Shown one piece after another: positions 8,717 through 41,021 of a stretch of DNA of 64,000 nucleotides. The stretch covers positions 434,001 to 498,000 of the forward strand of contig NZ_CP117879.1 of NCBI RefSeq assembly GCF_028736155.1, written 5' to 3'. Source of the DNA: Flavobacterium sp. KACC 22763 (GTDB lineage Bacteria; Bacteroidota; Bacteroidia; Flavobacteriales; Flavobacteriaceae). The position numbers and the translations under genes are program-made. Under the pieces are notes generated by a model. The model was not told the DNA's origin. It was given only the letters and a program-made list of their open reading frames with translations, and searched no databases. The first letter of the stretch is position 1; each line of letters starts with the position of its first letter.

Positions 8717-11350
8717 TTAAAAATTAAATCCAAGTCTTGCATAGTAATAAGCTCCGCTGAAACCCATTTGTACAGCATCCCAATAACCTCCAGCTTCTGT
8801 ATTTCCTTGTTCGTCCTGTTTAGTTGGGTATACATTAAATAAGTTGTTGCTTCCTAAAGTCAGTTTTAAGCTTTTTGTAAATTGATATCCAACAGTTAAA
8901 TCAGTAATCAATCTTGGGTTGTAAACATCGTCTTCATCAGCATAATCAACCAAAACTACTTTGCTGAAACGAGTAAAAGCTAATCCTGCATCAAATTTGT
9001 TTTTTGCATAAGTAAGGTTTAAACCAAATTTATTGTCTGGAGCAGAAGCCAGTAAAAATGCTTTTTCGCGTTTTCCGAAGAAAATAGCTTCGTCAAGAGT
9101 GCCATTTTTAACCTTGTCAATTTTCATGTCGTTGATGTTTCCTACTAAAGTGGCACCAAATTGGCCGAAATCAAAGTTTTTCTTCCAAGAGAAAACCAAA
9201 TCCAAACCATGTGTGCTTGTGTCAACTCCATTTACGAAAAATTGAGCTTCGGAAACACCAAGATTTAAAGAACTGGCATCAAAATATCCAGTCAAAACAA
9301 TACGGTCTTTTACCTGAATATAATAGCCGTCAACTGTAGCTGTAAAATCGCCAAAAGATGCCGTAAAACCTAAAGAAGCATTTACTGCTTTTTCTTCATT
9401 CAATTTCTGAATTCCGAACGCTCTTGTTACTGGGCTATCGTTTGGTGCCAATAATACTTCTGTTGCCCCGCTGGCATTAAAGTTGGTAAAACGTAAATTA
9501 TAATAAATTTGAGCTAAAGATGGCGCACGGAAACCTGTGCTTATCGATCCTCTAGCGTTGATATGATCTGTAAGTTTAAGCCTTGAGGCTAATTTTCCGT
9601 TTAGTGTACTTCCAAAATCACTGTAATTTTCAAAACGTAAAGCTCCGCTTAACATCCAAGCTTCAGTAACATCCAATTCGGCATCAGTATAAAGAGAGAA
9701 GTTAGTTCTGTCTTTATTTACTTCGTTGGCAGGGCTGTATCCAGGGAAACCTTGCGAACCTCCAGGTCTTGGTTCTCCAGTTACAGGGTCAATTGGTGCG
9801 CTTTGCGTTGTCGGATCGGTAATAGGTTTTCCGTTTGTATCATAAGTTGCGTATGAACCTTCTTCGCCAGCAAAAATTTCAAATTGCTCCACTCTAAATT
9901 CAGCTCCAAAAGCAATATTTAAACCTTTTAAAACATCTCCATAATTTTTAGAAATATCAAAATTTGTGGTGTTTTGAAGTAAACTGTGTCCTCCAGCATC
10001 AAATTCATGAGGAGATTTTTCTTCAAGAGAAGCATTTATAGTTCCTTTAATATCGTATTGGAATTTGTTTTTACCAAAAGTATTGCTCAAATCAAATTTC
10101 CATCCGCCAGAAGATTCAGTTCTAATTCCTGCTGCGATAGAATTATCATTAATTTTAGAAGTAATTCTTGGCGTGTATCCACCTGGATAAACAGATTCTA
10201 CAACTCTTTCGCCATCATTTCTGGTAAAAGCATAAGCATCTGTATCTCTAAAATTGCTTCCGCCAAAAGCGTAAAATTCAGTTTTTTCAGAAATAGGAAT
10301 TGCTAAATTGGCGAACAAGTTAACGCCTGTCATTTCAGCATCTCCAAAACCTTTTCTAAAATCGTAAGCAGGTCTTAGCGTTTTGTTTTTGCTTAAAAAT
10401 TCTCCCGTAACATTTACATAACCGCCTTTAGAGCCAATTCCTGTTCCGTAGTTTGCTGCTACTCTTACTGAACCTCCATCGAAATCCTGATCTTTTCCAT
10501 AAGAGTTTCCGTTTCCATTCTGATCCAATCTAAATCCTTTTGTATTTGGAGTCCCTGGCAAGAATTCGCCTTTGGCATGTGTGTTAAAAACACCATACGT
10601 AACAGAGCCTGTTAATTCGTCAACGTTGTCATTTGTCACAATATTAATAACTCCGGCAATGGCATCAGAACCATATTGAGCAGAGGCACCGTCGCGCAGA
10701 ATTTCAATTCTTTTAATAGATGCGGCAGGAATCGCATTCAAATCTGTTCCTGTATTACCGCGCCCGCGCGTTCCAAATAAATTGATTAGAGAAGATTGAT
10801 GCCTTCTTTTTCCGTTAATCAAAACCAAGGTCTGATCTGGTCCCATACCTCTCAAAGAAGCAGGGTCAACGTGGTCGGCACCATCAGATCCCGATTGTTT
10901 ATTGGCATTAAATGAGGGAGCGACGTATTGCAATAGCTGATTAATTTCGATTTTTCCGCTTTGCGTCGTAACATCTTTTACATTGATTACATCAATAGGA
11001 ACTGCCGAATTTACAACGGTTCTCTTAGCATTTCTGGAACCAACCACAACAACGTCATTTAAAACCTGACCATCATTTTCACTTAATGTAACATTTATTT
11101 TATCTCCAGAAGCTGTTTTTTCAACTGTTGTAAATCCTACATAACTGAAAACCAAAGTTGCGCCTTCTTTAACTTTTATTCTGAAGCTTCCCTCAAAATC
11201 GGTAGAAACACCATTAGAAGTTCCTTTTTCGACAATATTAACACCTGGAAGTGGGTTTCCAGTTTTATCTTTTACAAGACCCGAGACCTCTTTTTGTGCA
11301 AAAAGAAATGCTGAATTCAGCAGAAATAGTAATAATGCAATCTTTTTCAT
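8717..11350 (-). CDS. TonB-dependent outer-membrane receptor
   Basis: An 877-residue receptor. The open frame extends to 11488, but the start at 11350 (MKKIALLLFLLNSAFLFAQ) gives a clean signal peptide and is preferred. Residues ~20-105 are a CarboxypepD_reg-like domain (GLVKDKTGNPLPGVNIVEKG). The plug domain follows (VLINGKRRHQSSLINLFGTR; IKRIEILRDGASAQYGSDAI; AGVINIV) and then a ~22-strand barrel ending in an aromatic Phe (ARLGFNF). It imports an unknown ligand using TonB energy. There is no SusD-like partner next to it, so it is better called a general TonB-dependent receptor than a SusC. It is monocistronic. Confidence 0.92.
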   Translation of the reverse strand: MKKIALLLFLLNSAFLFAQKEVSGLVKDKTGNPLPGVNIVEKGTSNGVSTDFEGSFRIKVKEGATLVFSYVGFTTVEKTASGDKINVTLSENDGQVLNDVVVVGSRNAKRTVVNSAVPIDVINVKDVTTQSGKIEINQLLQYVAPSFNANKQSGSDGADHVDPASLRGMGPDQTLVLINGKRRHQSSLINLFGTRGRGNTGTDLNAIPAASIKRIEILRDGASAQYGSDAIAGVINIVTNDNVDELTGSVTYGVFNTHAKGEFLPGTPNTKGFRLDQNGNGNSYGKDQDFDGGSVRVAANYGTGIGSKGGYVNVTGEFLSKNKTLRPAYDFRKGFGDAEMTGVNLFANLAIPISEKTEFYAFGGSNFRDTDAYAFTRNDGERVVESVYPGGYTPRITSKINDNSIAAGIRTESSGGWKFDLSNTFGKNKFQYDIKGTINASLEEKSPHEFDAGGHSLLQNTTNFDISKNYGDVLKGLNIAFGAEFRVEQFEIFAGEEGSYATYDTNGKPITDPTTQSAPIDPVTGEPRPGGSQGFPGYSPANEVNKDRTNFSLYTDAELDVTEAWMLSGALRFENYSDFGSTLNGKLASRLKLTDHINARGSISTGFRAPSLAQIYYNLRFTNFNASGATEVLLAPNDSPVTRAFGIQKLNEEKAVNASLGFTASFGDFTATVDGYYIQVKDRIVLTGYFDASSLNLGVSEAQFFVNGVDTSTHGLDLVFSWKKNFDFGQFGATLVGNINDMKIDKVKNGTLDEAIFFGKREKAFLLASAPDNKFGLNLTYAKNKFDAGLAFTRFSKVVLVDYADEDDVYNPRLITDLTVGYQFTKSLKLTLGSNNLFNVYPTKQDEQGNTEAGGYWDAVQMGFSGAYYYARLGFNF

Positions 11351-30361: not shown

Positions 30362-30856
30362 ATGAGTGAGAAACATATAGTAGTTCAGGGAGCTTCACTA
30401 AAATGTAAATTTAGCGTAGAACCCAAAAAAGATATATTAAAAGTAAAATCGCAGGATAAGCATTATGCTAATGATAAAGAAGCTGAGAAAAAACTCATTG
30501 CGACCGACAAAGAAATTGGGCAGACATTAGAGAAAAATACGTTTGGTAAATGCAAAATGCAGCCAAACGGAAGCGGAGATTATTTGCCGTGTCAGGCCAC
30601 AATAACAAAGTGGAGTGCTTTTTACGAAAAAGTAACCTTAAGCAATCAAGGAAAAATTCTATTGGAAGACAGTAAAGGAACTTGCCCGATTGGAGGACCA
30701 GATTGTATAGAAGTAGACAAACACGGTCAAAAAGCAGAAGCGAGCAAACAAAATGCTAAAAAAGCGAAGCCACAGGTAAATAATCAAATAAATCCTTTGG
30801 TTAATACCTCAAAATTTCAAGAGAGTTTAGAAGAGAGTGATTCTATTTGTAAATAA
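30362..30856 (+). CDS. PAAR-like spike-tip protein (DUF4280)
   Basis: A 164-residue protein with the DUF4280 signature. It has the N-terminal GASLKCKFSVEPKKDILKV, then FGKCKMQPNGSGDYLPC, TITKWSAFYEKVTLSNQGKI, and TCPIGGPDCIEVDKHGQ, with four or more conserved cysteines suited to metal binding. These proteins cap VgrG like PAAR proteins do. The effector gene starts 11 bases downstream, so this tip probably carries that effector. The C-terminal ~35 residues are a Gln/Asn/Lys-rich tail. Confidence 0.82.
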   Translation: MSEKHIVVQGASLKCKFSVEPKKDILKVKSQDKHYANDKEAEKKLIATDKEIGQTLEKNTFGKCKMQPNGSGDYLPCQATITKWSAFYEKVTLSNQGKILLEDSKGTCPIGGPDCIEVDKHGQKAEASKQNAKKAKPQVNNQINPLVNTSKFQESLEESDSICK

Positions 30857-30867
30857 AATAAAATAGT

Positions 30868-33342
30868 ATGTCAGATTTTAAAATAATTGGAAATCCGGAT
30901 CCTGTTGTAGGTAAGGAAGAATTCTACTCAGTAAATACTTTTTTACCGAGTATTCTGCCTTTTCAAAATTCAGCTTCTAATAATAGTTTTGAACAGCCTG
31001 TAAAATGGGAAATATACATTCTTGAAAACGGAAGATGGCGTAAGACTAAAGAAAATGATAAAACTGGAAAAAGAATTTCTTATACCTTTCTTCAAAAAAG
31101 TTTAGAAAGAAAAGGCATCCGTATTCTGGCAAGAAGAGGAGAAGATGTGGCACGCCTTAATATAACTTCACATCCTGCGGAAAAACCAAAAATTGAAAGC
31201 ATAGAACTGCTTGATAAAAATGGACAAAAACCTGCGAAACCGCTTTCTTATGGACAGACTCTAAAAGCTAGGGTTAACTGTCTTCATATGGAAAAACACA
31301 AAGTATATGTTACCCTTTGGGAAGATGATGCAGCTGGTGCAGGACACAATAAAGCCAATGAAAAAAATATAATACAAACACTTTCAGGAGTTGTTAAAAA
31401 TGGTAAAGCAGATGTTGACTTTTTACTGAGACCAAGTTTTGCGAAAATTGCAAAACAAAACGGTCCAGAAGAAGGAAAAATTCATGAGTACTATGTTACC
31501 GTTGATTTTAACAAAAATAAAATTGCAAGTAACAATGTAAACGTAAATGATATTGAAGCTCCTGTAGCTCCTTATAAGGGAAAGACAACACCAAAAGAAG
31601 CTGAAAAGCCAAGCACTCCTCCCAAGAAAGATTCTCCAAAGCAAGATGCATCGGGTGCTAAAAAAGAAAAGGGTCGAATCAATTCAGTGAATCTTACTGA
31701 TACAGTTGGAAATAAGATTAAAGGAGTATTTAAAGAAAAACAGATTAAAGTTTGGATCAACTCAACGGGGCTAAAAGGAAAGGATATCAGCCTAAAATTA
31801 TATGACGAAGATGTAGCTAGCAACGATTTACTGTTTCAACAGGAATTTACGCTAAAATCTGATTTGCATGCGATTGTTGTACCTCTAGATACAATTCCTC
31901 GAAGCCTTGGAGGTAACTTTTGGACTGAAGGTGCAGAACAGGAGTTGTTTGCAGAAGTTAAAGTGTTGCAGACAAATGATTTAAAAAAGAGTGAAGTTGT
32001 AGATGTAGATGCTAAAGTTTTTAAACCAGATCCTGTAGAGCATACTAATAAGGTTGCGAAAGTTGGTGATACTAAAGATGATAATAAAGACAAAGATAAA
32101 GTAGTCTGTCAAAAATGTATTGATCCCGTAACCGTAAAACAATTAGAAGATTTATTTCCAAAAGCTGACAAAGAAACTTTAAAAACTATTGCAGAAACAT
32201 ATACAAAACATATGAAAGCATTAAAAATGGATACCTGTTGGAATAAAGCTCATTTTTTTGCACAGGCTATAGTTGAAAGTGGAAAAAGCTTTAAATTAAA
32301 AGAAGGAGAAGGAATGAATTATTTGGCTGATGATCTATATTTAGGTAGATGGAATCCAAAAAAGAAAAAGTATGTTACTATATTTTCATATTTTAAAACA
32401 AGGAAAGATGAGGCTTATAAATACGGTAGAATAGAAGAAATAAAGAATGGAAAAAAAGTAGTTACTCAAATAGCTGATCAACAAGCGATAGCGAATCGCG
32501 TCTATGCTAATAGAGTGGGAAATAAAGGAATTGAATCAGGTGATGGATGGAATTTTAGAGGGAAAGGATGTATACAATTAACAGGGAGAACTAACTATGA
32601 AAATGCAAATAAATATACTTTAAAATATGAAAATGCTGATATAGTTAAGAATTCGGATTTGGTTGCAAAAAATATTAAAATCGCAGTTTTATCATCTATG
32701 GCATATTTTGATATGTATGGAGTTAATAAAAAGGCAAACAAGTGTAAAGATGTTAAAAACAAAATTGCTCCAATGATTGGAAATGATGTACCACTTGAAA
32801 ATGGAAAAACTAATCATGATGAGAAACAAGAAGCTTTTGATGATTTTACTTCAAAGACTTTTTCTATAGATGCTTGCAAATATGGAAGTGCAGTAGTAAA
32901 TAAGGATGAAAAGAAAGATACGGGAAAAGGAGTTACGATTAGATTAATTAGGAAATGGGAAACAAAAAAATCTACTATTGGAGAATTTACAATTGATGAT
33001 TCTGATATAAAAGGGTATATACTAGAGGAGAAAGGACCAGATACAACAGTTTCGGGTATCGAACAAAGAGTTCCTGTGGGGACTTACAATTTAAAATGGC
33101 ATAATGGAACTAAGAAAAAAGGAGTTTTGAAATTGTATAATAGTAATGTGTCTGAGGACAGGGCTATTTTAATACATTCAGGAAATACAGCAGCAGATAC
33201 TGAGGGGTGTTTGTTGCCAGGAAGTACAAAATCTACGGATTTTGTAGGTGATAGTAAAGCAAAAGTCAAAGAAATAAATGATTATGTTAAAGAGAAAGGT
33301 GTTGAGGGAGCAAAAATTATAATAGCAGCAAAATATGAATAA
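30868..33342 (+). CDS. T6SS effector: GH19-like lysozyme plus DUF5675
   Basis: An 824-residue multi-domain protein without a signal peptide. Two beta-sandwich modules (residues ~105-230 and ~270-390: KPKIESIELLDKNGQKPAKP; RINSVNLTDTVGNKIKGVF) probably serve as an adaptor to the spike. Residues ~410-650 are a GH19 chitinase/lysozyme-like domain with likely catalytic Glu470 in HFFAQAIVESGKSFKL and the block GWNFRGKGCIQLTGRTNYE (near 560-580). The C-terminal ~140 residues are DUF5675, with His770 in ILIHSGN and Cys781 in EGCLLPG. The likely target is peptidoglycan of the recipient cell. It follows the PAAR-like gene, and a small exported protein overlaps its stop codon, the usual effector-immunity arrangement. 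The second half is more AT-rich than the first. Confidence 0.85.
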   Translation: MSDFKIIGNPDPVVGKEEFYSVNTFLPSILPFQNSASNNSFEQPVKWEIYILENGRWRKTKENDKTGKRISYTFLQKSLERKGIRILARRGEDVARLNITSHPAEKPKIESIELLDKNGQKPAKPLSYGQTLKARVNCLHMEKHKVYVTLWEDDAAGAGHNKANEKNIIQTLSGVVKNGKADVDFLLRPSFAKIAKQNGPEEGKIHEYYVTVDFNKNKIASNNVNVNDIEAPVAPYKGKTTPKEAEKPSTPPKKDSPKQDASGAKKEKGRINSVNLTDTVGNKIKGVFKEKQIKVWINSTGLKGKDISLKLYDEDVASNDLLFQQEFTLKSDLHAIVVPLDTIPRSLGGNFWTEGAEQELFAEVKVLQTNDLKKSEVVDVDAKVFKPDPVEHTNKVAKVGDTKDDNKDKDKVVCQKCIDPVTVKQLEDLFPKADKETLKTIAETYTKHMKALKMDTCWNKAHFFAQAIVESGKSFKLKEGEGMNYLADDLYLGRWNPKKKKYVTIFSYFKTRKDEAYKYGRIEEIKNGKKVVTQIADQQAIANRVYANRVGNKGIESGDGWNFRGKGCIQLTGRTNYENANKYTLKYENADIVKNSDLVAKNIKIAVLSSMAYFDMYGVNKKANKCKDVKNKIAPMIGNDVPLENGKTNHDEKQEAFDDFTSKTFSIDACKYGSAVVNKDEKKDTGKGVTIRLIRKWETKKSTIGEFTIDDSDIKGYILEEKGPDTTVSGIEQRVPVGTYNLKWHNGTKKKGVLKLYNSNVSEDRAILIHSGNTAADTEGCLLPGSTKSTDFVGDSKAKVKEINDYVKEKGVEGAKIIIAAKYE

Positions 33343-34090
33343 ATATCTTGTAGCTTTTTTATTATTAGTTGTATACAATATAAGTGCACAAAATAATTTA
33401 AACATTCAACAACTTAAGGAAGGATATAATACTAAAAACAAAAAAGTATTTATAGATAATTTCCCCAATAATTTTAAAGATTTTAAATCAACTTTTGGTT
33501 GGAATGATAAATTGGATAAACCAAATGTATTATATAGTGAAGCGAATGACTTTATAAAATATTTTTTTGAATTGTCATCTAGCAATGAGAATTGCAAAAA
33601 GAAGATTATAAAAATTGCATGTAAAGCTAAATGGGAAGCTGATGCGGTTAATTATTTTCATATGAATTTAGTTTTATTGGTTGAAAAGGATGAAAATTTT
33701 GATAAAATGCTGCAAACATTGGATGATAAAGATTTGAATGATTTCTGGCGCTTTTATTTTGATATTGAAAATTTAATTTATTCGCAAAAACTATATACTA
33801 TTCTTAATGTTTCCATGAAAGAGAAAGCAATGTTTGTTTTTAATATATTGAAAAAAGAAAGGAGTAATGATAGTGATGAACATAGAAAATTAAATAAATA
33901 TCAAATTTTTGATAAAGATGGCTATTGTAATTTGAGAAAATACAGTAATTCCAAATCTGATGTTATAGGAAAAATAGAAAATAATGAAATTATAAATGTT
34001 TTAGATAATTCCGAAGATTGGTGGTTTATCCAAACGAATAAAGGATTAGTTGGGTTTGTACATAAAAGTAGAATAAAAATAAAAAATTGA
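33335..34090 (+). CDS. Exported SH3b-domain protein, probable immunity protein
   Basis: A 251-residue protein with a signal peptide (MNKYLVAFLLLVVYNISAQ) that overlaps the effector stop codon by 8 bases, which implies translational coupling. A helical region of ~150 residues follows. The C-terminal 60 residues form an SH3b domain (YCNLRKYSNSKSDVIGKIEN ... WWFIQTNKGLVGFVHKSRIK). The same SH3b domain ends each of the lipoproteins downstream. Periplasmic location and overlap with a cell-wall-degrading effector make it the best candidate for the cognate immunity protein. No family is known to me for the N-terminal part. Confidence 0.7.
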   Translation: MNKYLVAFLLLVVYNISAQNNLNIQQLKEGYNTKNKKVFIDNFPNNFKDFKSTFGWNDKLDKPNVLYSEANDFIKYFFELSSSNENCKKKIIKIACKAKWEADAVNYFHMNLVLLVEKDENFDKMLQTLDDKDLNDFWRFYFDIENLIYSQKLYTILNVSMKEKAMFVFNILKKERSNDSDEHRKLNKYQIFDKDGYCNLRKYSNSKSDVIGKIENNEIINVLDNSEDWWFIQTNKGLVGFVHKSRIKIKN

Positions 34091-34091
34091 A

Positions 34092-34742
34092 ATGGGAAAA
34101 AAGTTTTTTTTTAAGATTATCATCTTAACGTTATGTTTAATTTCTTGTAATCAAAAGAAGGAAAAAGATTTAGATGTTAAAGAAAGAGATACTAAAGAGA
34201 TAGTAAGTGATACTTTAAGTGTTAATAAAACAAAAGATTACATTGAGGATTATAAAGCAAAATATAAAGAAAAAAAATATAATCTAAGAGTTGAAAAAGA
34301 TTGCGATTTAAATATGGATGGTCAAATGGATAAAATTATCATTTTTGAGCCTTCTCAAATAGCTAATAATGAACTAACAAAAGAATCACCTGTTTGTGTT
34401 TTTATCAAAAAAGAAAAGGGCTATAATATTTATGAAAATAAAAATATTATTTACACTTCTTTTTTTAACTCAATGGCAGAAGGTCTTCAAGATTTAGTAG
34501 TTAAAGACAATTATTTCACATTTGAAGAAAATAATCAAGCAGGAGAAGTTAGAGGTAATGACTATATAACATTTAAGTATGACTTAAAATCCAATGAAAT
34601 TGTATTGCACAAATACAGTGTTGAATTAATTAGTGTTGATGGTGAAAATGATAAAACTTTCACATATGGTAAAGAAGTATTTGGAAAGATACTTTTTAAT
34701 GATTTTGATATTGATAAAATAAAAGAAAAAATCAACAATTAA
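34092..34742 (+). CDS. Small lipoprotein, possible immunity protein
   Basis: A 216-residue protein with a lipoprotein signal (FFFKIIILTLCLISCNQKK). A Lys/Asp/Glu-rich linker precedes a domain with DCDLNMDGQMDKIIIFEP, a calcium-loop-like motif of the FG-GAP/VCBS or DUF type, and ITFKYDLKSNEIVLHK. It starts one base after the preceding stop codon and is therefore coupled to the effector operon. It lacks the SH3b domain of its neighbours. Function unknown; immunity is inferred from position only. Confidence 0.6.
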   Translation: MGKKFFFKIIILTLCLISCNQKKEKDLDVKERDTKEIVSDTLSVNKTKDYIEDYKAKYKEKKYNLRVEKDCDLNMDGQMDKIIIFEPSQIANNELTKESPVCVFIKKEKGYNIYENKNIIYTSFFNSMAEGLQDLVVKDNYFTFEENNQAGEVRGNDYITFKYDLKSNEIVLHKYSVELISVDGENDKTFTYGKEVFGKILFNDFDIDKIKEKINN

Positions 34743-34802
34743 AAAACTAAATATTTTGAACTTCAATGTTGAAATACTAAAAATAAATTAATTTAAAAAT
34801 AA

Positions 34803-34874
34803 GCTCCTTGACATATTGAAAAGAAAAGCCCCAGCTAGCAGGAGTCCTATGCTTTTGTTAGCTGCGGGAATTAA
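34803..34874 (+). repeat. 72-bp leader element with RNA hairpin, copy 1
   Basis: Starts GCTCCTTGACATATTGAAAA. The 3' half forms a hairpin: CAGCTAGCAGGAG pairs with CTTTTGTTAGCTG over 13 positions if three G-U pairs are allowed, extended by a CCC/GGG clamp with a bulged base. It ends 15 bases before the preferred start of the next gene. No T-run follows, so it is not a terminator. Confidence 0.85.
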
Positions 34875-34889
34875 TAAATGCAAAATTTA

Positions 34890-35912
34890 ATGAAAAAAAT
34901 AATAAATCCTATTCTGCTTTTTTTGGTGTTATTTTTTAATTCTTGTAATTCAGAAAAGAAAGAAAACATAATAAAAGATCAAATGAAAAAGGGAACACTA
35001 ATAGACGGGATAACTTTAGATAATTCTATATTTAGTAATAAAGACATTGATCTTAAGAAATATAAATTCAATGGAGTATTAATTGAAAACATTAATATAA
35101 ATGATTTATTAGATAAAAATTATAGAGATGATTTTATTAAGTTTTTATTAATCACAAAAAATGAAGATGATAGTTTTAAATCGACTTTGGTTTCCCAGTT
35201 GTTGATTATTAGGATGATACAATTGTCTGATACTGATGCTTTTTATATATTATCTGAGATTTCAAAAAATGATAGAGTATCTTATAATGGAATAGAATTA
35301 TATCAAGAGACTTTATTGAAATTCTTCATTGAAAATCCTATGTTCTATGTTCAACAAGGAAGTAAATATAATGATTCAACTATTATTAAAAGTATTTCAA
35401 ATTCATTAGATGAATTTATAGCAGACGAAAATTTTTTTAAAGATAATATTGCTAGTATTAATTTAGAAAGTCAACAGATGTTGTTGTATCCAGAAAAAGA
35501 AAAAGAATTTAATGCCAATTTCAAAAATACATTAAAAAAATTACCTAAAGTTGAAGCTATGTTTTCACCTTCTTCTTATACAGCCTGGGAAAGTAAAACA
35601 ATTTATTTTACAAATATCTATTCTTTATTTACTAAAGCAGTTACTCAAAAATTGACAACTCGAGAAAATTTGTATTATAAGTCATACATATTACCGATTT
35701 TAAAAAAGTACACCAGTTTAGGCTATGTTATTAATGATTCAGATGGGTATACAAATTTAAGAAAAGACAAAAGTGCATCTTCTGAAATTTTGCAAAAAAT
35801 AACTACGGGAGAAGAAATTATTGTGTTAGATAATTCTGGTGATTGGTGGCTTGTTGAGTCAAGAGATGGTAAAAAAGGGTATGTATATAAAACTAAAATT
35901 AAAGAAGAATAA
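34890..35912 (+). CDS. SH3b lipoprotein 1 of the cassette array
   Basis: A 340-residue lipoprotein. The start at 34890 gives a typical signal (MKKIINPILLFLVLFFNSCN, lipobox NSC). An in-frame ATG at 34878 is possible but leaves only 3 bases to the leader element. A helical middle region of ~260 residues has no recognised family. The C-terminal SH3b domain contains SDGYTNLRKDKSASSEILQK and GDWWLVESRDGKKGYVYKTK. A hairpin element precedes the gene and another follows it. It is a probable periplasmic immunity or immunity-like protein. Confidence 0.7.
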   Translation: MKKIINPILLFLVLFFNSCNSEKKENIIKDQMKKGTLIDGITLDNSIFSNKDIDLKKYKFNGVLIENININDLLDKNYRDDFIKFLLITKNEDDSFKSTLVSQLLIIRMIQLSDTDAFYILSEISKNDRVSYNGIELYQETLLKFFIENPMFYVQQGSKYNDSTIIKSISNSLDEFIADENFFKDNIASINLESQQMLLYPEKEKEFNANFKNTLKKLPKVEAMFSPSSYTAWESKTIYFTNIYSLFTKAVTQKLTTRENLYYKSYILPILKKYTSLGYVINDSDGYTNLRKDKSASSEILQKITTGEEIIVLDNSGDWWLVESRDGKKGYVYKTKIKEE

Positions 35913-35933
35913 TTAGTAATAAAAAGAGAAAAA

Positions 35934-36005
35934 GCTCCTTGACATATTGAAAAGAAAAGCCCCAGCTAGCAGGAGTTTTACGCTTTTGTTAGCTGAGGGA
36001 ATTAA
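35934..36005 (+). repeat. 72-bp leader element with RNA hairpin, copy 2
   Basis: Nearly identical to copy 1. Differences fall in the loop (GTTTTACG in place of GTCCTATG) and at the bulge (AGCTGAGGG in place of AGCTGCGGG); the stem is unchanged. It ends 12 bases before the next ATG. Confidence 0.85.
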
Positions 36006-36017
36006 AAAGAAAAGATT

Positions 36018-37133
36018 ATGAAAATGCTGCAGATATTAGTTTTATTAGTTTCTATTGTAAGCTTTAGTTCTTGTAATTCTCAGACAAAAGAGAAAAGAAA
36101 TGAAAAAAAAGAAATACAGATGTTTACCAATGTTTTAAATAAATCGAATTACAAAAATACCATCGAAAATTTTGAAAATGTTAATAAAGACATTATTGGT
36201 ATTGATACTCGTAATTTGAAAGAAGGTTATAATGAGATTAAGATTCTTGGTGAATCTATAGATTACCAAATATGTAAGGAAGGGAAATATATTAAAATAG
36301 GAGAAGACATTTTACCAGATATAGATAACATCAAAGAAGATAAGCTTATAAGTTATCCATATATGAAATCTCTAATAAATTTAAATAAAATTCTATATTT
36401 AAATGATATGGCTTCTACTTTAGGGACTAGTCTAAAGGATATTGATTTGGCAAGAGATGTGGTTGTATTATTTAATTACGAAAAAAATGAATCTTTAATA
36501 AAGAAAGTTGTTGATAATATTGGTGATTGGGATGATTTTTCAAATAATTTCAAATTATCAATGGTCTTTTATAATAGAGATCGTACTATTAGAAAGAAAA
36601 TCCTTAAATATCTTTCAAAAAAACAAGAGCTTATATATCACTTGACTTTTTATTTAGCTGATAATAGAAAGAGTATAATAAATGCCAATAAGTTATCAAC
36701 AGAAAAAATTGATGAAGCTATTGCTTACTTATTAAATCTTGGACTTGAAGGTAAATCAAATGAAGATATAGATACAGATAATGATATGTCATATAGACTT
36801 TTAAACAATCTTCTTACGTCTCATCCTAATATTATTAATTCTTTTGAAAGAATAAATTATTACGGACATGCAGATTTAGCTTTTTTTATAAAAGTATTCC
36901 ATACTATACAAAATAATAGTGATCAAAATTCAGAAATAAAAAAATATTATATTCAAGATTCGGATGGTTACTCTAATATAAGAAAAGATAAAAATAGTAA
37001 CTCAGAGATAGTTGGAAAAATTAAATCTGGCGAAGAAATAGACGTATTGGATGATTCTGGAAATTGGTGGTTTATCCAAGCTAAATCGGGTAATAAAGGA
37101 TATGTCTACAAGACGAAAATAAAATCTGAATAA
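36018..37133 (+). CDS. SH3b lipoprotein 2 of the cassette array
   Basis: A 371-residue lipoprotein with signal peptide ending LVSIVSFSSCNSQTKEKR; the gene at 38497 has almost the same stretch. The helical middle region (VVLFNYEKNESLIKKVVDNI; IRKKILKYLSKKQELIYHLT) is recognisably related to that of the 38497 gene (VVYLNYEKNNLLSNSFVKNI; IRKKILQDIANKKPDFIFDL). The C-terminal SH3b domain has SDGYSNIRKDKNSNSEIVGK and GNKGYVYKTKIKSE. Probable immunity-like protein. Confidence 0.7.
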   Translation: MKMLQILVLLVSIVSFSSCNSQTKEKRNEKKEIQMFTNVLNKSNYKNTIENFENVNKDIIGIDTRNLKEGYNEIKILGESIDYQICKEGKYIKIGEDILPDIDNIKEDKLISYPYMKSLINLNKILYLNDMASTLGTSLKDIDLARDVVVLFNYEKNESLIKKVVDNIGDWDDFSNNFKLSMVFYNRDRTIRKKILKYLSKKQELIYHLTFYLADNRKSIINANKLSTEKIDEAIAYLLNLGLEGKSNEDIDTDNDMSYRLLNNLLTSHPNIINSFERINYYGHADLAFFIKVFHTIQNNSDQNSEIKKYYIQDSDGYSNIRKDKNSNSEIVGKIKSGEEIDVLDDSGNWWFIQAKSGNKGYVYKTKIKSE

Positions 37134-37150
37134 AAGAAAATATAGAAAAG

Positions 37151-37222
37151 GTTCCTTGACATATTGAAAAGAAAAGCCCCAGCTAGCAGGAGTTTTACGC
37201 TTTTGTTAGCTTGGGGAATTAA
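37151..37222 (+). repeat. 72-bp leader element with RNA hairpin, copy 3
   Basis: Matches copy 2 except near the ends: it starts GTTCCTTGAC, and the 3' arm ends TTAGCTTGGGG, which restores a four-pair CCCC/GGGG clamp with a bulged T. It ends 9 bases before the next ATG. Confidence 0.85.
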
Positions 37223-37231
37223 TGAAAAAAG

Positions 37232-38386
37232 ATGAAAAATATAATTTCTTTACTAGTTCTATTGCTAATTTCCTGTACAGGAAAAACAGACAGCAAAAAA
37301 AATAATTTAGGTAATTCTAATGGTTCAAAAGAGGCTCCTTATAATTTAACAGATTTAGGAGATGGTAAAAAGTTTAATTATGATACTTTGTCTATAGATT
37401 ATATTAACAAGGTGAAAACAAGCCTCATAAAGAGTAATTTTAAATTTCCAGATGAACAGACATTTAAAAAAAGAACTTTAGAGGTCTTTAAAATAAATTT
37501 GTACGATTATAAAAACAATATTATTGTTTTGAGACCAGCAATGTTTACTGAAATTGCGATTAAAGAAAGTAGATTTATCTTAATTGAAGATCAAGAAACC
37601 GATGGCAGTGAAAATGCTATTAATGAAAACCTTGAATTTTATTATAATTCTTATGTATTCTATGAGGATAAAATTGCATTTAATTGGTTGAAGTCTCGTT
37701 ATAAACAGCAGTTAATAGATTTAGTTGTACAATACGGCTATAATTCTGATAAAGAGTTGGTGAAATTTGTATTTAAAAATTACGATTTTGATGATAGTGT
37801 TTCATTCCATGATTTGATTTTTACATACGATGTAAAATCTAAAAAATATATTTTAAGAGAAAGTATTCTAAATGATATTGAAAGTATTGTCTATAAAGGA
37901 ACAGTTGAAGGCTATACAGAAGCAAAAGAAGGTAATGGCTATAATAGTTTCTCTGATATAATTGAAAAAATAAGAAGTAATCCAAACAACTACTTGGATG
38001 CAGAAAAATACATTGCTTTCTTATATGAAAAAGATTTAAGAGTCTGTGTAGTAGGTCATATAGAATCTAATTTGAGTGAGAATAAAAAGTATAAAACTTT
38101 TTTAAAGGAAAATAATTACTTTAATCTTATGAGACTGAAAGAGTATGTAGAAATTGTTTATGGAGGAGATTCAGATTCTGATGAAGTAAGTAAGATTTTT
38201 AAAATCTCGGACCCAGATGGATTTACGAATCTTAGAAAAGAGAAAAATTCTTCATCAGAAATTTTACAAAAAATAAATAATAATACTGAAGTTGAAGTAT
38301 TAGACGATTCAGGTAATTGGTGGCTGATCAAAACAAGTTCTGGAAACAAAGGATATGTTTATAAAACCAAGATAAAAGCTGAATGA
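37232..38386 (+). CDS. SH3b lipoprotein 3 of the cassette array
   Basis: A 384-residue lipoprotein (MKNIISLLVLLLISCTGKTD; lipobox LISC). Its middle region (YVFYEDKIAFNWLKSRYKQQ; LVVQYGYNSDKELVKFVFKN) does not resemble that of the neighbours, while the C-terminal SH3b (DPDGFTNLRKEKNSSSEILQ; GNWWLIKTSSGNKGYVYKTK) is nearly identical to theirs. This is the clearest case of constant ends around a different core. Function unknown; likely periplasmic protection against an effector. Confidence 0.7.
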   Translation: MKNIISLLVLLLISCTGKTDSKKNNLGNSNGSKEAPYNLTDLGDGKKFNYDTLSIDYINKVKTSLIKSNFKFPDEQTFKKRTLEVFKINLYDYKNNIIVLRPAMFTEIAIKESRFILIEDQETDGSENAINENLEFYYNSYVFYEDKIAFNWLKSRYKQQLIDLVVQYGYNSDKELVKFVFKNYDFDDSVSFHDLIFTYDVKSKKYILRESILNDIESIVYKGTVEGYTEAKEGNGYNSFSDIIEKIRSNPNNYLDAEKYIAFLYEKDLRVCVVGHIESNLSENKKYKTFLKENNYFNLMRLKEYVEIVYGGDSDSDEVSKIFKISDPDGFTNLRKEKNSSSEILQKINNNTEVEVLDDSGNWWLIKTSSGNKGYVYKTKIKAE

Positions 38387-38406
38387 TTTAAGTAGTTAGT
38401 ATACAT

Positions 38407-38478
38407 GCTCCTTGACATATTGAAAAGAAAAGCCCCAGCTGACAAAAGGTTTATGCTTTTGTTAGCTGAGGGAATTAA
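38407..38478 (+). repeat. 72-bp leader element with RNA hairpin, copy 4
   Basis: The 5' half is identical to the others. The left stem arm reads CAGCTGACAAAAG where copies 1-3 read CAGCTAGCAGGAG, and the right arm CTTTTGTTAGCTG is unchanged. The three G-U pairs of copies 1-3 become A-U pairs, and one A-U becomes G-U, so pairing is preserved at RNA level. It ends 18 bases before the next ATG. Confidence 0.85.
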
Positions 38479-38496
38479 AAATTATAAAAAATAATT

Positions 38497-39642
38497 ATGA
38501 GAAGTTTAATGATTTCCATTTTAGTTGTTTCTATTGTGAGCTTTAGCTCTTGCAATTCTCAGACAAAAGAGAAAAGAACAGAATCAATAAAGAAAAATGA
38601 AGATAAGTTATATGCTGAATATACACCATTAATGAGAGATTTGCTAAAAAATAATAATTACAAATTCTTAGAACATAGTGTATTTAAAAATAAAGTTATT
38701 GAATATTTTGGAGTTGATATTGATAATGCAAAATTTAATGATGTTTATTTAGAAAGTGGCCTTGGGTACACGGCTTTAAGTAATGAAGGGTTTATCGATA
38801 CTTATCAAGTTGATAGAGGTGTAATTGATGGAGCTGGAGATGCTTTTGCAGATATTCTCAAAGACGGATCAAATAATGACTATAATATTGATTTTATAAA
38901 CTACAATAAGGTTTTATTTAATGATGATTTATCTGCAATATCAAAAGTCAACATAGATAAAGATAAAGTTGAAGATATTGTAGTGTATTTAAATTATGAA
39001 AAAAACAATCTTTTAAGTAATTCATTTGTGAAGAATATAAAGAAGGTTGACAATTATAATGAAAGTTTTAAATGGCATCTTTTATGGTATAATAATAAAA
39101 CAAAACCAGATGTAATTAGAAAAAAAATATTGCAAGATATAGCTAATAAAAAGCCTGATTTTATTTTTGATTTAGCTTATTTTCTAAATAATAATTCTAA
39201 TAAAATTAAAGAGAAAACAGATGGCGCATTGATTGATGCCACACTAGCTTTTTTAATAGAAGTTGAATTACAGCATTATGAAGATAAGGATTTGGATGAT
39301 AATAAAGGTTACAGTTTACTTAATAATTTTTATATTCAAAATCCTAAGATGTTAGACAGATTTAAATCTCAAAAATTTTATGGATATCCATTAATTGACA
39401 GTTATACTAAAAAGTATTTATTAATGTCAGAAGAAAATGAAATTTCTTATGGTAAAGTTATAGATCCTGATGGTTATACTAATTTGAGAAAAGATAAAAA
39501 CAGTACATCAGTTATAATTGAAAAAATTAAATCTGGTGAAAAGGTTGAAATTTTAGATGATTCAGAAAATTGGTGGCTCATAAAAACAAATTCTGGAAAC
39601 AAAGGATATGTTTATAAAACTAAACTACAATCCATAAATTAA
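38497..39642 (+). CDS. SH3b lipoprotein 4 of the cassette array
   Basis: A 381-residue lipoprotein with signal peptide MRSLMISILVVSIVSFSSCN, then SQTKEKR as in gene 2 of the array. The middle region is a diverged relative of gene 2. The C-terminal SH3b has DPDGYTNLRKDKNSTSVIIE and GNKGYVYKTKLQSIN. It is the last member before the structural genes resume with tssK, about 210 bases downstream. Confidence 0.7.
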   Translation: MRSLMISILVVSIVSFSSCNSQTKEKRTESIKKNEDKLYAEYTPLMRDLLKNNNYKFLEHSVFKNKVIEYFGVDIDNAKFNDVYLESGLGYTALSNEGFIDTYQVDRGVIDGAGDAFADILKDGSNNDYNIDFINYNKVLFNDDLSAISKVNIDKDKVEDIVVYLNYEKNNLLSNSFVKNIKKVDNYNESFKWHLLWYNNKTKPDVIRKKILQDIANKKPDFIFDLAYFLNNNSNKIKEKTDGALIDATLAFLIEVELQHYEDKDLDDNKGYSLLNNFYIQNPKMLDRFKSQKFYGYPLIDSYTKKYLLMSEENEISYGKVIDPDGYTNLRKDKNSTSVIIEKIKSGEKVEILDDSENWWLIKTNSGNKGYVYKTKLQSIN

Positions 39643-39851
39643 AAACATTTTTAAATAAAAAGCTTTAATAAGTCTTTATAAACTAAAATATAAATCCAAG
39701 AGAGAAGGTGAAAATCAGGCTCAGTGCGCATAATTGTATCTATTTAACCCGTAAAATCTTGTTATAATAATAAACAACACTAATAATTAAAGTCTAAACC
39801 AACAAAAAGAGAAACGAAAGATTCTCATTTCAAAATAAAAACTATAGAATT

Positions 39852-41021
39852 ATGATAGAAAAATTAAGTCATTTTCCCGTAAACTGGATTGATGGGATGA
39901 AGATAAATAAGAGCCATTTTTTATCTATTCAGGACAACGTTTCTGAGTTGGTAAATGATGCAATTGGTATTCATACCACACCTATAAGTTATGGTCTGTT
40001 GGATTCTGGAAACCAAAACAAGGAGGCTACAAAAATCACTTTAGGAATCGATAATCACAAACTGCTTCGCGTTCGTGTAGAAGAATGCCACGCCATAACA
40101 CCAAATGGATCCAGAATCGAAATCAGTAAAAGCAATACAGATACATTAGATCTTCAGGTTCCGTACCCGGAAGATACTTATGAAATAAAAGAAGGGGAAC
40201 AACTGGTTTTATTGGCTTGTATTTCGGTTAATTCTAAAAAGAGAATTCCTTTTGGCGAACCAGATCCAGATGAAGTACCGCCAAGATATCCGTACACACA
40301 GCCAGAATACAAACTGCATTTAATTAAAGCTGAGGAGTTTCGCTCAGGAATTGGATACGGCGGTTTCTATCTCGCAATTGGTAAAATCCTTATTGGAGAT
40401 ACGACAGTTTTAGACGAAGACTATATTCCGTCTTCTGTAACCGTATCCTGTCATCCAAAACTGGTTGATATGCAGGCACAGATTGCCCGTTCGTTTGGCC
40501 AGATTGAGATTTACTCAGTTCAGATTTCTCAAAAAATAAACAGAGGACAGCAGACAGGACTTTTACCGCAAACCGTAATGCAATTGGCAGATAATACGGG
40601 ATATTATTTAGGCAGCTGTTTAACGCAGTTCCGTTGGTTTTCATTGCACCAGCATCCAGCTTCAATGTTAAGCACAGTGGTAGCATTTGCCAGAGTGATG
40701 AAGAATTTTATCGATTCAAAATCGGGAGCGGGAAAAGAAGAGCTGTTAAACTATTTTGCCGAATGGTGTGATATTTCGCAAGGAGATTTCGAAATATTGT
40801 TTACGACCCTTATAAATGCTGGCTACGATCACGTGCATATCGATAAAACGGCTTCATTGGCTATAAATGCTTTAAACAGAATAGAGAGATTATTCGAAAC
40901 ACTAAGCAAACTGGATTACATCGGTAAGAAAAAAGAAAACATCGAATTGTTTGTTGCCGAAACAGAGAAAAAAGACATCGTTCACAATCCGAAACGTCAC
41001 GGTTTCTTTATAAAAGACTAA
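39852..41021 (+). CDS. tssK: T6SS baseplate protein TssK
   Basis: A 389-residue cytoplasmic protein. The N-terminal shell domain begins FPVNWIDGMKINKSHFLSIQ, close to the VxWxEGMfLxPqHF pattern of TssK and phage receptor-binding-like domains. YGLLDSG, HKLLRVRVEECHAITPNGSR and RYPYTQPEYKLHLI follow. The helical middle and C-terminal head contain HPASMLSTVVAFARVMKNFI. In other systems TssK trimers connect the baseplate to the membrane complex. Here the partner is probably TssN. It begins a run of structural genes tssK-tssO-tssB-tssC. Confidence 0.82.
   Translation: MIEKLSHFPVNWIDGMKINKSHFLSIQDNVSELVNDAIGIHTTPISYGLLDSGNQNKEATKITLGIDNHKLLRVRVEECHAITPNGSRIEISKSNTDTLDLQVPYPEDTYEIKEGEQLVLLACISVNSKKRIPFGEPDPDEVPPRYPYTQPEYKLHLIKAEEFRSGIGYGGFYLAIGKILIGDTTVLDEDYIPSSVTVSCHPKLVDMQAQIARSFGQIEIYSVQISQKINRGQQTGLLPQTVMQLADNTGYYLGSCLTQFRWFSLHQHPASMLSTVVAFARVMKNFIDSKSGAGKEELLNYFAEWCDISQGDFEILFTTLINAGYDHVHIDKTASLAINALNRIERLFETLSKLDYIGKKKENIELFVAETEKKDIVHNPKRHGFFIKD

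Follow-up and report, generated by a model that had tools for sequence, protein, structure and literature searches.

A 72-base element that occurs four times in a type VI secretion system (T6SS) operon of Flavobacterium sp. KACC 22763, each time ahead of a candidate orphan immunity gene, begins with what is almost certainly a boxA motif of the ribosomal RNA (rRNA) type and continues into a covarying hairpin. The elements lie in a stretch of 64,000 nucleotides (nt) of contig NZ_CP117879.1 (positions 434,001 to 498,000, forward strand), here called the window and numbered from its first base. By analogy with known boxA sites, we propose that the element is probably an antitermination tag, made up of boxA and hairpin, that keeps orphan immunity genes transcribed. 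Four parts of this proposal are what we infer rather than observe: transcription of the array as one unit, Nus factor binding, antitermination, and a history of displacement.

Four copies of the element

The copies start at 34803, 35934, 37151 and 38407 on the plus strand, and a search of the whole 5,561,005-base genome with the full 72-base query matched these four places only. Their 3′ ends lie 15, 12, 9 and 18 nt from the start codon of the following gene, the first distance being counted to ATG 34890 in an open reading frame (ORF) that also opens at 34878. An earlier note made from the letters of this DNA alone (the original prediction) had given the same four positions and a spacing of 9–18 bases to the start codon, and both were confirmed. 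It had also described the arms of the hairpin: the left arm is indeed CAGCTAGCAGGAG in copies 1–3 and CAGCTGACAAAAG in copy 4, and both forms pair with the right arm through G-U pairs, but the right arm is not constant as had been stated. In copy 3 it ends in GCTT, not GCTG, and the outermost pair is lost or shifted by one. Folding of the four copies gave −24.9 to −25.3 kcal/mol (z −3.6 to −4.8), with 0 to 2 of 200 shuffled sequences equally stable. An Rfam scan of the array found no family for the elements and one sub-threshold match elsewhere in the array. The parts of each copy, as defined by pattern match for the motifs and by folding and covariation for the hairpins, are:

34803..34819, plus strand: boxA-like motif of copy 1 (GCTCCTTGACATATTGA), of the same motif class as in rRNA leaders and spacers
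34829..34868, plus strand: covarying RNA hairpin of copy 1
35934..35950, plus strand: boxA-like motif of copy 2
35960..35999, plus strand: hairpin of copy 2
37151..37167, plus strand: boxA-like motif of copy 3 (GTTCCTTGACATATTGA)
37177..37216, plus strand: hairpin of copy 3, outermost pair lost or shifted
38407..38423, plus strand: boxA-like motif of copy 4
38433..38472, plus strand: hairpin of copy 4

Resemblance of the 5′ part to rRNA boxA

The 16S leaders of the six host rRNA operons carry GTTCGTAGACATATTGA, the spacers ahead of 23S carry GTTCATTGACATATTGA, and the motif GYTCNTWGACRTATTGA is common to both of these sites and the element. When GYTCNTWGACRTATTGA was used as a 17-base pattern with at most one mismatch, the genome returned 16 matches, consisting of 12 rRNA sites and the four elements; about 1.6 chance matches are expected from base composition at that stringency, and the reversed pattern, run as a control, had none in the genome. 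The spacing of the hairpin in the element is also nearly that of the 16S leader, with the stem starting at +27 and +28 after boxA, respectively, while the stem in the rRNA spacer lies further off. The exact pattern was present in 22 of 23 genomes with this T6SS, and among the matches listed for those 22 genomes each was either an rRNA-type string or lay inside an effector-immunity array. Twenty rRNA-type loci were checked: 16 contained rRNA according to Rfam, two showed the start of 16S, and two reached a contig end with the same leader.

The likeness was also seen from the opposite direction. A covariance model trained on array copies only, with no rRNA sites, had its best matches in the host rRNA loci at the spacer boxA sites (24 bits in five, 20.4 in the sixth). 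In other genera the model gave 10 weak matches, five of which were rRNA leaders or spacers by Rfam and a sixth of which resembled a 16S leader at a contig end; the others were a boxA before an RNase E/G gene (one), terminator-like sequences (two) and coding sequence (one). Weak matches in fetched loci L082 and L084 were discarded as terminator-like, that in L085 because it fell within coding sequence, and G094:C56 as a palindrome without boxA (here and below, G numbers denote genomes and L numbers fetched loci). Together these comparisons make the assignment of the 5′ part to rRNA-type boxA close to certain. The original prediction, of which a leader element and a link to T6SS immunity were supported but a recombination site was not, had overlooked this match.

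Two further sites came to light. On the minus strand of L058, L060 and L061 (3240-3288), another weak model match (16.9 bits) lies upstream of the 16S boxA and is perhaps a second boxA-like site, GTTCCTTGA... In L088 (361-420; genome G602, of another genus), an RNase E/G gene (NCBIfam TIGR00757) is preceded at a distance of about 100 nt by a boxA with a hairpin, possibly a boxA-regulated leader, this being one site only. The window's genome has no site of this kind at up to one mismatch.

Covariation in the hairpin

For the analysis of the hairpin, 68 copies were gathered from 19 fetched loci and the window, representing 19 Flavobacterium genomes. Four copies (L046 4410, L044 7719, L039 14212 and L050 9787) were omitted because they are truncated or have a replaced hairpin, leaving 64 in the alignment. 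Standard pairs filled 94.6% of the counted cells, and shifting the partner by one to three columns lowered pairing to 32-57%. Eight of the 16 pairs showed two-sided changes; 61 cells carried such changes, compared with 12.2 in shuffles, and none of 500 shuffles reached 61. The 13-bp stem contained 117 G-U cells and 11 A-C cells. This excess, together with the covariation, points to selection on the sense RNA as opposed to the other strand or the DNA, and to a hairpin that would act as nascent sense RNA. The original prediction had proposed both selection on an RNA structure and a covariance model with a search for two-sided covariation as its check; the model was built from the 64 copies, and the covariation is present.

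Fifty-five proteins encoded behind elements fall into 31 families, and elements before unrelated proteins (0.79, 1323 pairs) are about as alike as those before related ones (0.81, 36 pairs). These 55 proteins came from 60 ORFs behind the 68 copies, with ORFs of less than 150 amino acids (aa) and six named copies excluded and TssG, behind one element of L052 (elp_L052_9078), dropped. Mean conservation was 0.94 in the 5′ part and 0.85 in the stem, and likeness was 0.877 within one array and 0.787 between genomes.

Position of the array in the T6SS operon

The window contains a Bacteroidota T6SS operon with TssG, TssN, DUF4280, a DUF5675 effector, TssO, TssC, TssD twice, and TssF. One further operon protein we presume to be VgrG-like, and we likewise take the DUF4280 protein to be PAAR-like. 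The genes that flank the array are:

30362..30856, plus strand: PAAR-like T6SS protein (DUF4280; Pfam PF14107, E 1e-19)
30868..33342, plus strand: T6SS effector candidate with a DUF5675 C-terminus (PF18925, 4.4e-24) and a weak GH19-like stretch (PF00182, 9e-4, below cut-off)
33335..34090, plus strand: cognate immunity candidate with an SH3_3 domain, overlapping the effector end, no element; 80% and 92% identity to the gene behind the same effector type in L043 and L050
34092..34742, plus strand: second gene behind the effector, lipoprotein-like, no element (locus comparison)
39852..41021, plus strand: TssK-like baseplate protein, next after the array (NCBIfam TIGR03353, E 2.5e-4, below cut-off; no Pfam match; synteny)

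In the fetched loci, too, the array follows the effector with its immunity gene and is followed by tssK. Outside this layout are L037, L038 and L041, which are cut by contig ends, and L035 and L047, in which the effector is unmatched; in L052 one element stands ahead of tssG. In 18 loci with the effector end and tssK on one piece (L035, L037, L038, L041, L047 and L052 are among those unused), no first ORF behind the effector was preceded by an element (0/18), as compared with 50 of 79 further ORFs. This distribution, the place of the array and the cognate matches described below bear out the predicted tie between a leader element and T6SS immunity genes.

Elements start 12-299 nt (median 41) after the upstream stop codon. 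Matches to what we took to be the Bacteroidota-type promoter consensus occurred near 1 of the 68 elements, and a scan of 33000-40200 for intrinsic terminators (GC stem plus T run) found no such site, in agreement with the original prediction that the element is not a terminator. Eight of the 68 copies have no ORF of at least 80 aa behind them within the range scanned, so broken cassettes are common. NusB is encoded in the genome, which also has two NusG-family genes, neither near the array, and hence no dedicated NusG paralogue there. Eight effector-region proteins gave only sub-cut-off NCBIfam matches, and none of six array proteins was matched by PADLOC.

Relatives and proposed origin of the orphan immunity candidates

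The four element-bearing genes of the window are:

34878..35912, plus strand: i1, orphan immunity candidate, lipoprotein with an SH3_3 domain; no cognate form found in the fetched loci
36018..37133, plus strand: i2, orphan immunity candidate; 76% and 77% identity to genes behind effectors in L051 and L039
37232..38386, plus strand: i3, orphan immunity candidate; 93% identity to a gene behind an effector in L036, 68% in L194
38497..39642, plus strand: i4, orphan immunity candidate; 90% identity to a gene behind an effector in L044

Three of the four (i2, i3 and i4) thus match element-less genes located directly behind other effectors. The effectors of L036 (i3) and L044 (i4) align with the window effector to residues 625 and 676 of 824 and then diverge, and that of L051 (i2) aligns to residue 777. 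The stretch from i3 through the element to i4 is nearly identical to L036, where i3 still stands directly behind the effector. In i4 the likeness between orphan and effector-linked DNA starts at the lipobox cysteine codon itself, and in i2 and i3 it starts 16-54 nt downstream of that codon; the element, leader and signal peptide are not common to the two forms. These comparisons place recombination next to the element, at the lipobox junction. Because cognate relatives lie behind other effectors and the junction is at the lipobox, we favor a displacement-type history: sequential displacement as proposed for Vibrio cholerae, in which a 5′ module of element and signal peptide would have been added to each retired gene.

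Distribution among relatives

A DNA search of 299 same-genus genomes gave strong matches (E < 1e-4) in 19, including the window's own; weaker matches (E 6.8e-4 to 0.1) were left out of this count. The covariance model from 64 copies matched 22 of 398 same-genus genomes at E ≤ 0.001, again including its own, the two weak ones being G079, which kept the 5′ part with another hairpin, and G094, whose site lacks boxA on inspection. A degenerate 28-base pattern of the 5′ part, searched against 84,980 species genomes, returned 27 stretches, all from Flavobacterium or Flavobacteriaceae records (records very near the window were possibly excluded).

tssK at 80% identity or more was present in 25 of the 299 genomes, and 19 of those 25 have the element. 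Among genomes with tssK and no element, tssN adjoins tssK with no island between them in G094, G042 has a single immunity gene only, G066 has one immunity gene and a 386-aa gene, and in G276 the interval from a LysM gene remnant to tssK had no match; the fifth is G249, described further below. G056, also one of the 25, has three gaps that retain the exact boxA (L186 2252, 4146, 5314) and differ from the element downstream of it, and according to the predicted fold this altered sequence may pair with boxA. G094 contains a palindrome like the element hairpin, without boxA (L188 around 9065-9140), and the array hairpin may be related to a dispersed Flavobacterium palindrome. On another contig of G175 (L194 5200-10300) a second effector-immunity island lies outside the T6SS cluster; one element there precedes a further gene and a second is decayed.

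A proposed role in antitermination, and its alternatives

In the mechanism we propose, NusB and ribosomal protein S10 would bind the boxA of the emerging RNA as RNA polymerase passes out of one cistron, and would join NusA and NusG in a processive complex. Loaded anew at every untranslated gap between cistrons, the complex would keep Rho from ending transcription within the acquired immunity genes of the T6SS operon, which are AT-rich and in some cases broken. The hairpin may space or protect boxA, as the stem behind the 16S-leader boxA may do. Whenever a new effector-immunity pair displaced an old effector, the retired immunity gene would gain the element and a new signal peptide. In Escherichia coli, boxA is reported to be necessary and sufficient for recruiting the rRNA antitermination factors (PMC10250234), and in Legionella, placing boxA ahead of synthetic CRISPR arrays is described as raising precursor RNA about tenfold along the array (PMC7862264).

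Several observations weigh against this proposal. The pattern behind the 16 genome matches was designed after both kinds of site were known, and the covariance model scored the host 16S leader boxA at only 13.9-16.6 bits (E 0.04-0.16). Two other measures of covariation stand out less, since 6 of 500 shuffles matched the number of pairs with two-sided changes and 22 of 500 the number of further pair types, and over all 16 pairs the G-U excess shrinks to 122 versus 27 A-C. Elements are missing before 29 of the 79 further ORFs; by size and place some of these are second genes of an effector module, fragments, a second effector or a conserved gene of about 387 aa, and others resemble genuine orphans (not all 29 were classed). 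Two further lipoprotein genes in G249 and, ahead of tssK in G187 (L197 2376-3922), two lipoprotein frames in tandem (stop-to-stop, separated by 33 nt) lack boxA even when two mismatches are allowed, and are counter-examples to a strict need for the element. A conserved motif upstream of tssK, TTTAACCCGNAAAANCTTGTTATAAT (window 39734-39780; 8 of 24 loci scanned), may be a promoter or regulatory site, and tssK may have a promoter of its own. Finally, a boxA need not mean antitermination, because the E. coli suhB boxA represses translation and so promotes Rho termination, and because rRNA is intrinsically Rho-resistant, with Nus factors there serving mainly folding, according to PMC5725501.

That precedent suggests an alternative in which Nus factors on the leader, looped to RNA polymerase, block ribosomes, leaving the orphan genes at low expression or tied to the free pool of Nus factors and S10. 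Such a mechanism has been proposed for mRNA-leader boxA at suhB and lambda N, with regulation possible from more than 50 nt and lambda nutL acting from about 200 bp (PMC5725501), and most start codons here lie about 72-138 nt behind the element start. Repression before every array gene would, however, be expected to hit downstream genes too, and steady expression is what one would expect immunity genes to require; we regard this alternative as unlikely. Quite unlikely, in our view, is an RNA processing or stability site, with the stem serving either as a cleavage point or as a shield for the 5′ end of each immunity cistron, and with the resemblance to rRNA coming from processing common to both. 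An imperfect 16-pair stem with two-sided covariation would suit such a site, as would the boxA-hairpin before an RNase E/G gene in one other genus, but it is the 5′ part that is better conserved than the stem, and G056 retains boxA with a different sequence downstream.

A DNA recombination site of a cassette array, as entertained in the original prediction, would account for one copy per gene, for an element, leader and signal peptide of other origin than the gene body (which matches from the lipobox on), and for copies more alike within an array than between genomes. Yet the breakpoints found fall past the element, where the coding sequence of the gene begins, and not inside the element; the pairing is biased as in sense RNA, and the Pfam matches of the 28 ORFs scanned in the window (18.1-53.2 kb) include no recombinase family. 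It would also leave the rRNA boxA identity unexplained. Site-specific recombination is thus disfavored by strand-specific pairing and lipobox breakpoints, and we consider it highly improbable. Hardly credible at all is a passive relic, a functionless leader copied along with duplicated genes: copies within an array do resemble each other, but the two-sided covariation argues against it, as does a likeness before unrelated proteins about equal to that before related ones.

Comparison with known systems

Unlike rRNA boxA, the element precedes protein genes, is repeated for each gene, has a longer stem, and has mostly C or A as its fifth base. In the lambda nut site a short boxB hairpin, to which N protein binds, comes after boxA; the hairpin behind boxA in the element has about 16 pairs. 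The integron attC site is folded as a DNA strand and has an integrase nearby; the sense-RNA pairing bias and the absence of an integrase family among the 28 scanned ORFs do not fit it.

The CRISPR-array boxA (Stringer et al., cited in PMC7862264) is described as carrying transcription through a long acquired-defense array, as proposed here, but it is a single boxA in the leader of a non-coding array, as opposed to one boxA per protein gene with a covarying hairpin. The suhB leader boxA also stands ahead of a protein gene; it represses translation of a single gene, with no repeated array (PMC5725501). As in the V. cholerae T6SS orphan arrays (PMC5361080), orphans lie behind the cognate pair in the T6SS cluster and the order of displacement can be read from relatives: the array is behind a cognate effector-immunity pair, and three of its four genes are relatives of cognate immunity genes. 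A conserved intergenic RNA element is not mentioned in the available part of that paper. Bacteroidales recombinase-associated acquired interbacterial defense (rAID) arrays share co-oriented orphan immunity genes and conserved intergenic motifs but are defined by a tyrosine recombinase (PMC12247911), and none occurs among the Pfam matches of the same 28 ORFs. The SUKH-type family PF09346 is present in 395 Bacteroidota genomes; in 16 regions examined for it, neither a recognisable rAID array nor, at up to three mismatches, an array with boxA-like sites was found. One locus near a SUKH-type gene (L238 1289-7290, genome G906) has motifs repeated every 0.6-1 kb or so and is possibly a cassette array.

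A bolder version of our proposal holds that the rRNA antitermination signal was taken over by flavobacteria as a portable 5′ module (boxA, hairpin and signal peptide) and spliced at the lipobox onto each retired immunity gene, keeping it transcribed despite cassette decay, and that the Bacteroidales rAID intergenic motif is the same device. We offer this as speculation that is rather doubtful as a whole.

Implications

The part of the open-access literature covered yielded no description of a boxA in T6SS or in orphan immunity arrays, and papers naming boxA, type VI secretion and antitermination together were unrelated as far as their available text goes. The parts are known; their combination, a boxA with a covarying hairpin once per orphan immunity gene, was not found in that literature. 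A few leaders and CRISPR arrays are the settings outside rRNA in which boxA was already known; here it recurs with each gene of an acquired immunity array, with genes directly behind the effector, which lack the element, as a natural control. The element provides a sequence handle for locating orphan immunity arrays in Flavobacterium. If the proposed role is correct, it would link rRNA antitermination to interbacterial defense and account for an operon's tolerance of long inserts made up of foreign genes in decay, suggesting how long arrays of gathered immunity genes could remain switched on.

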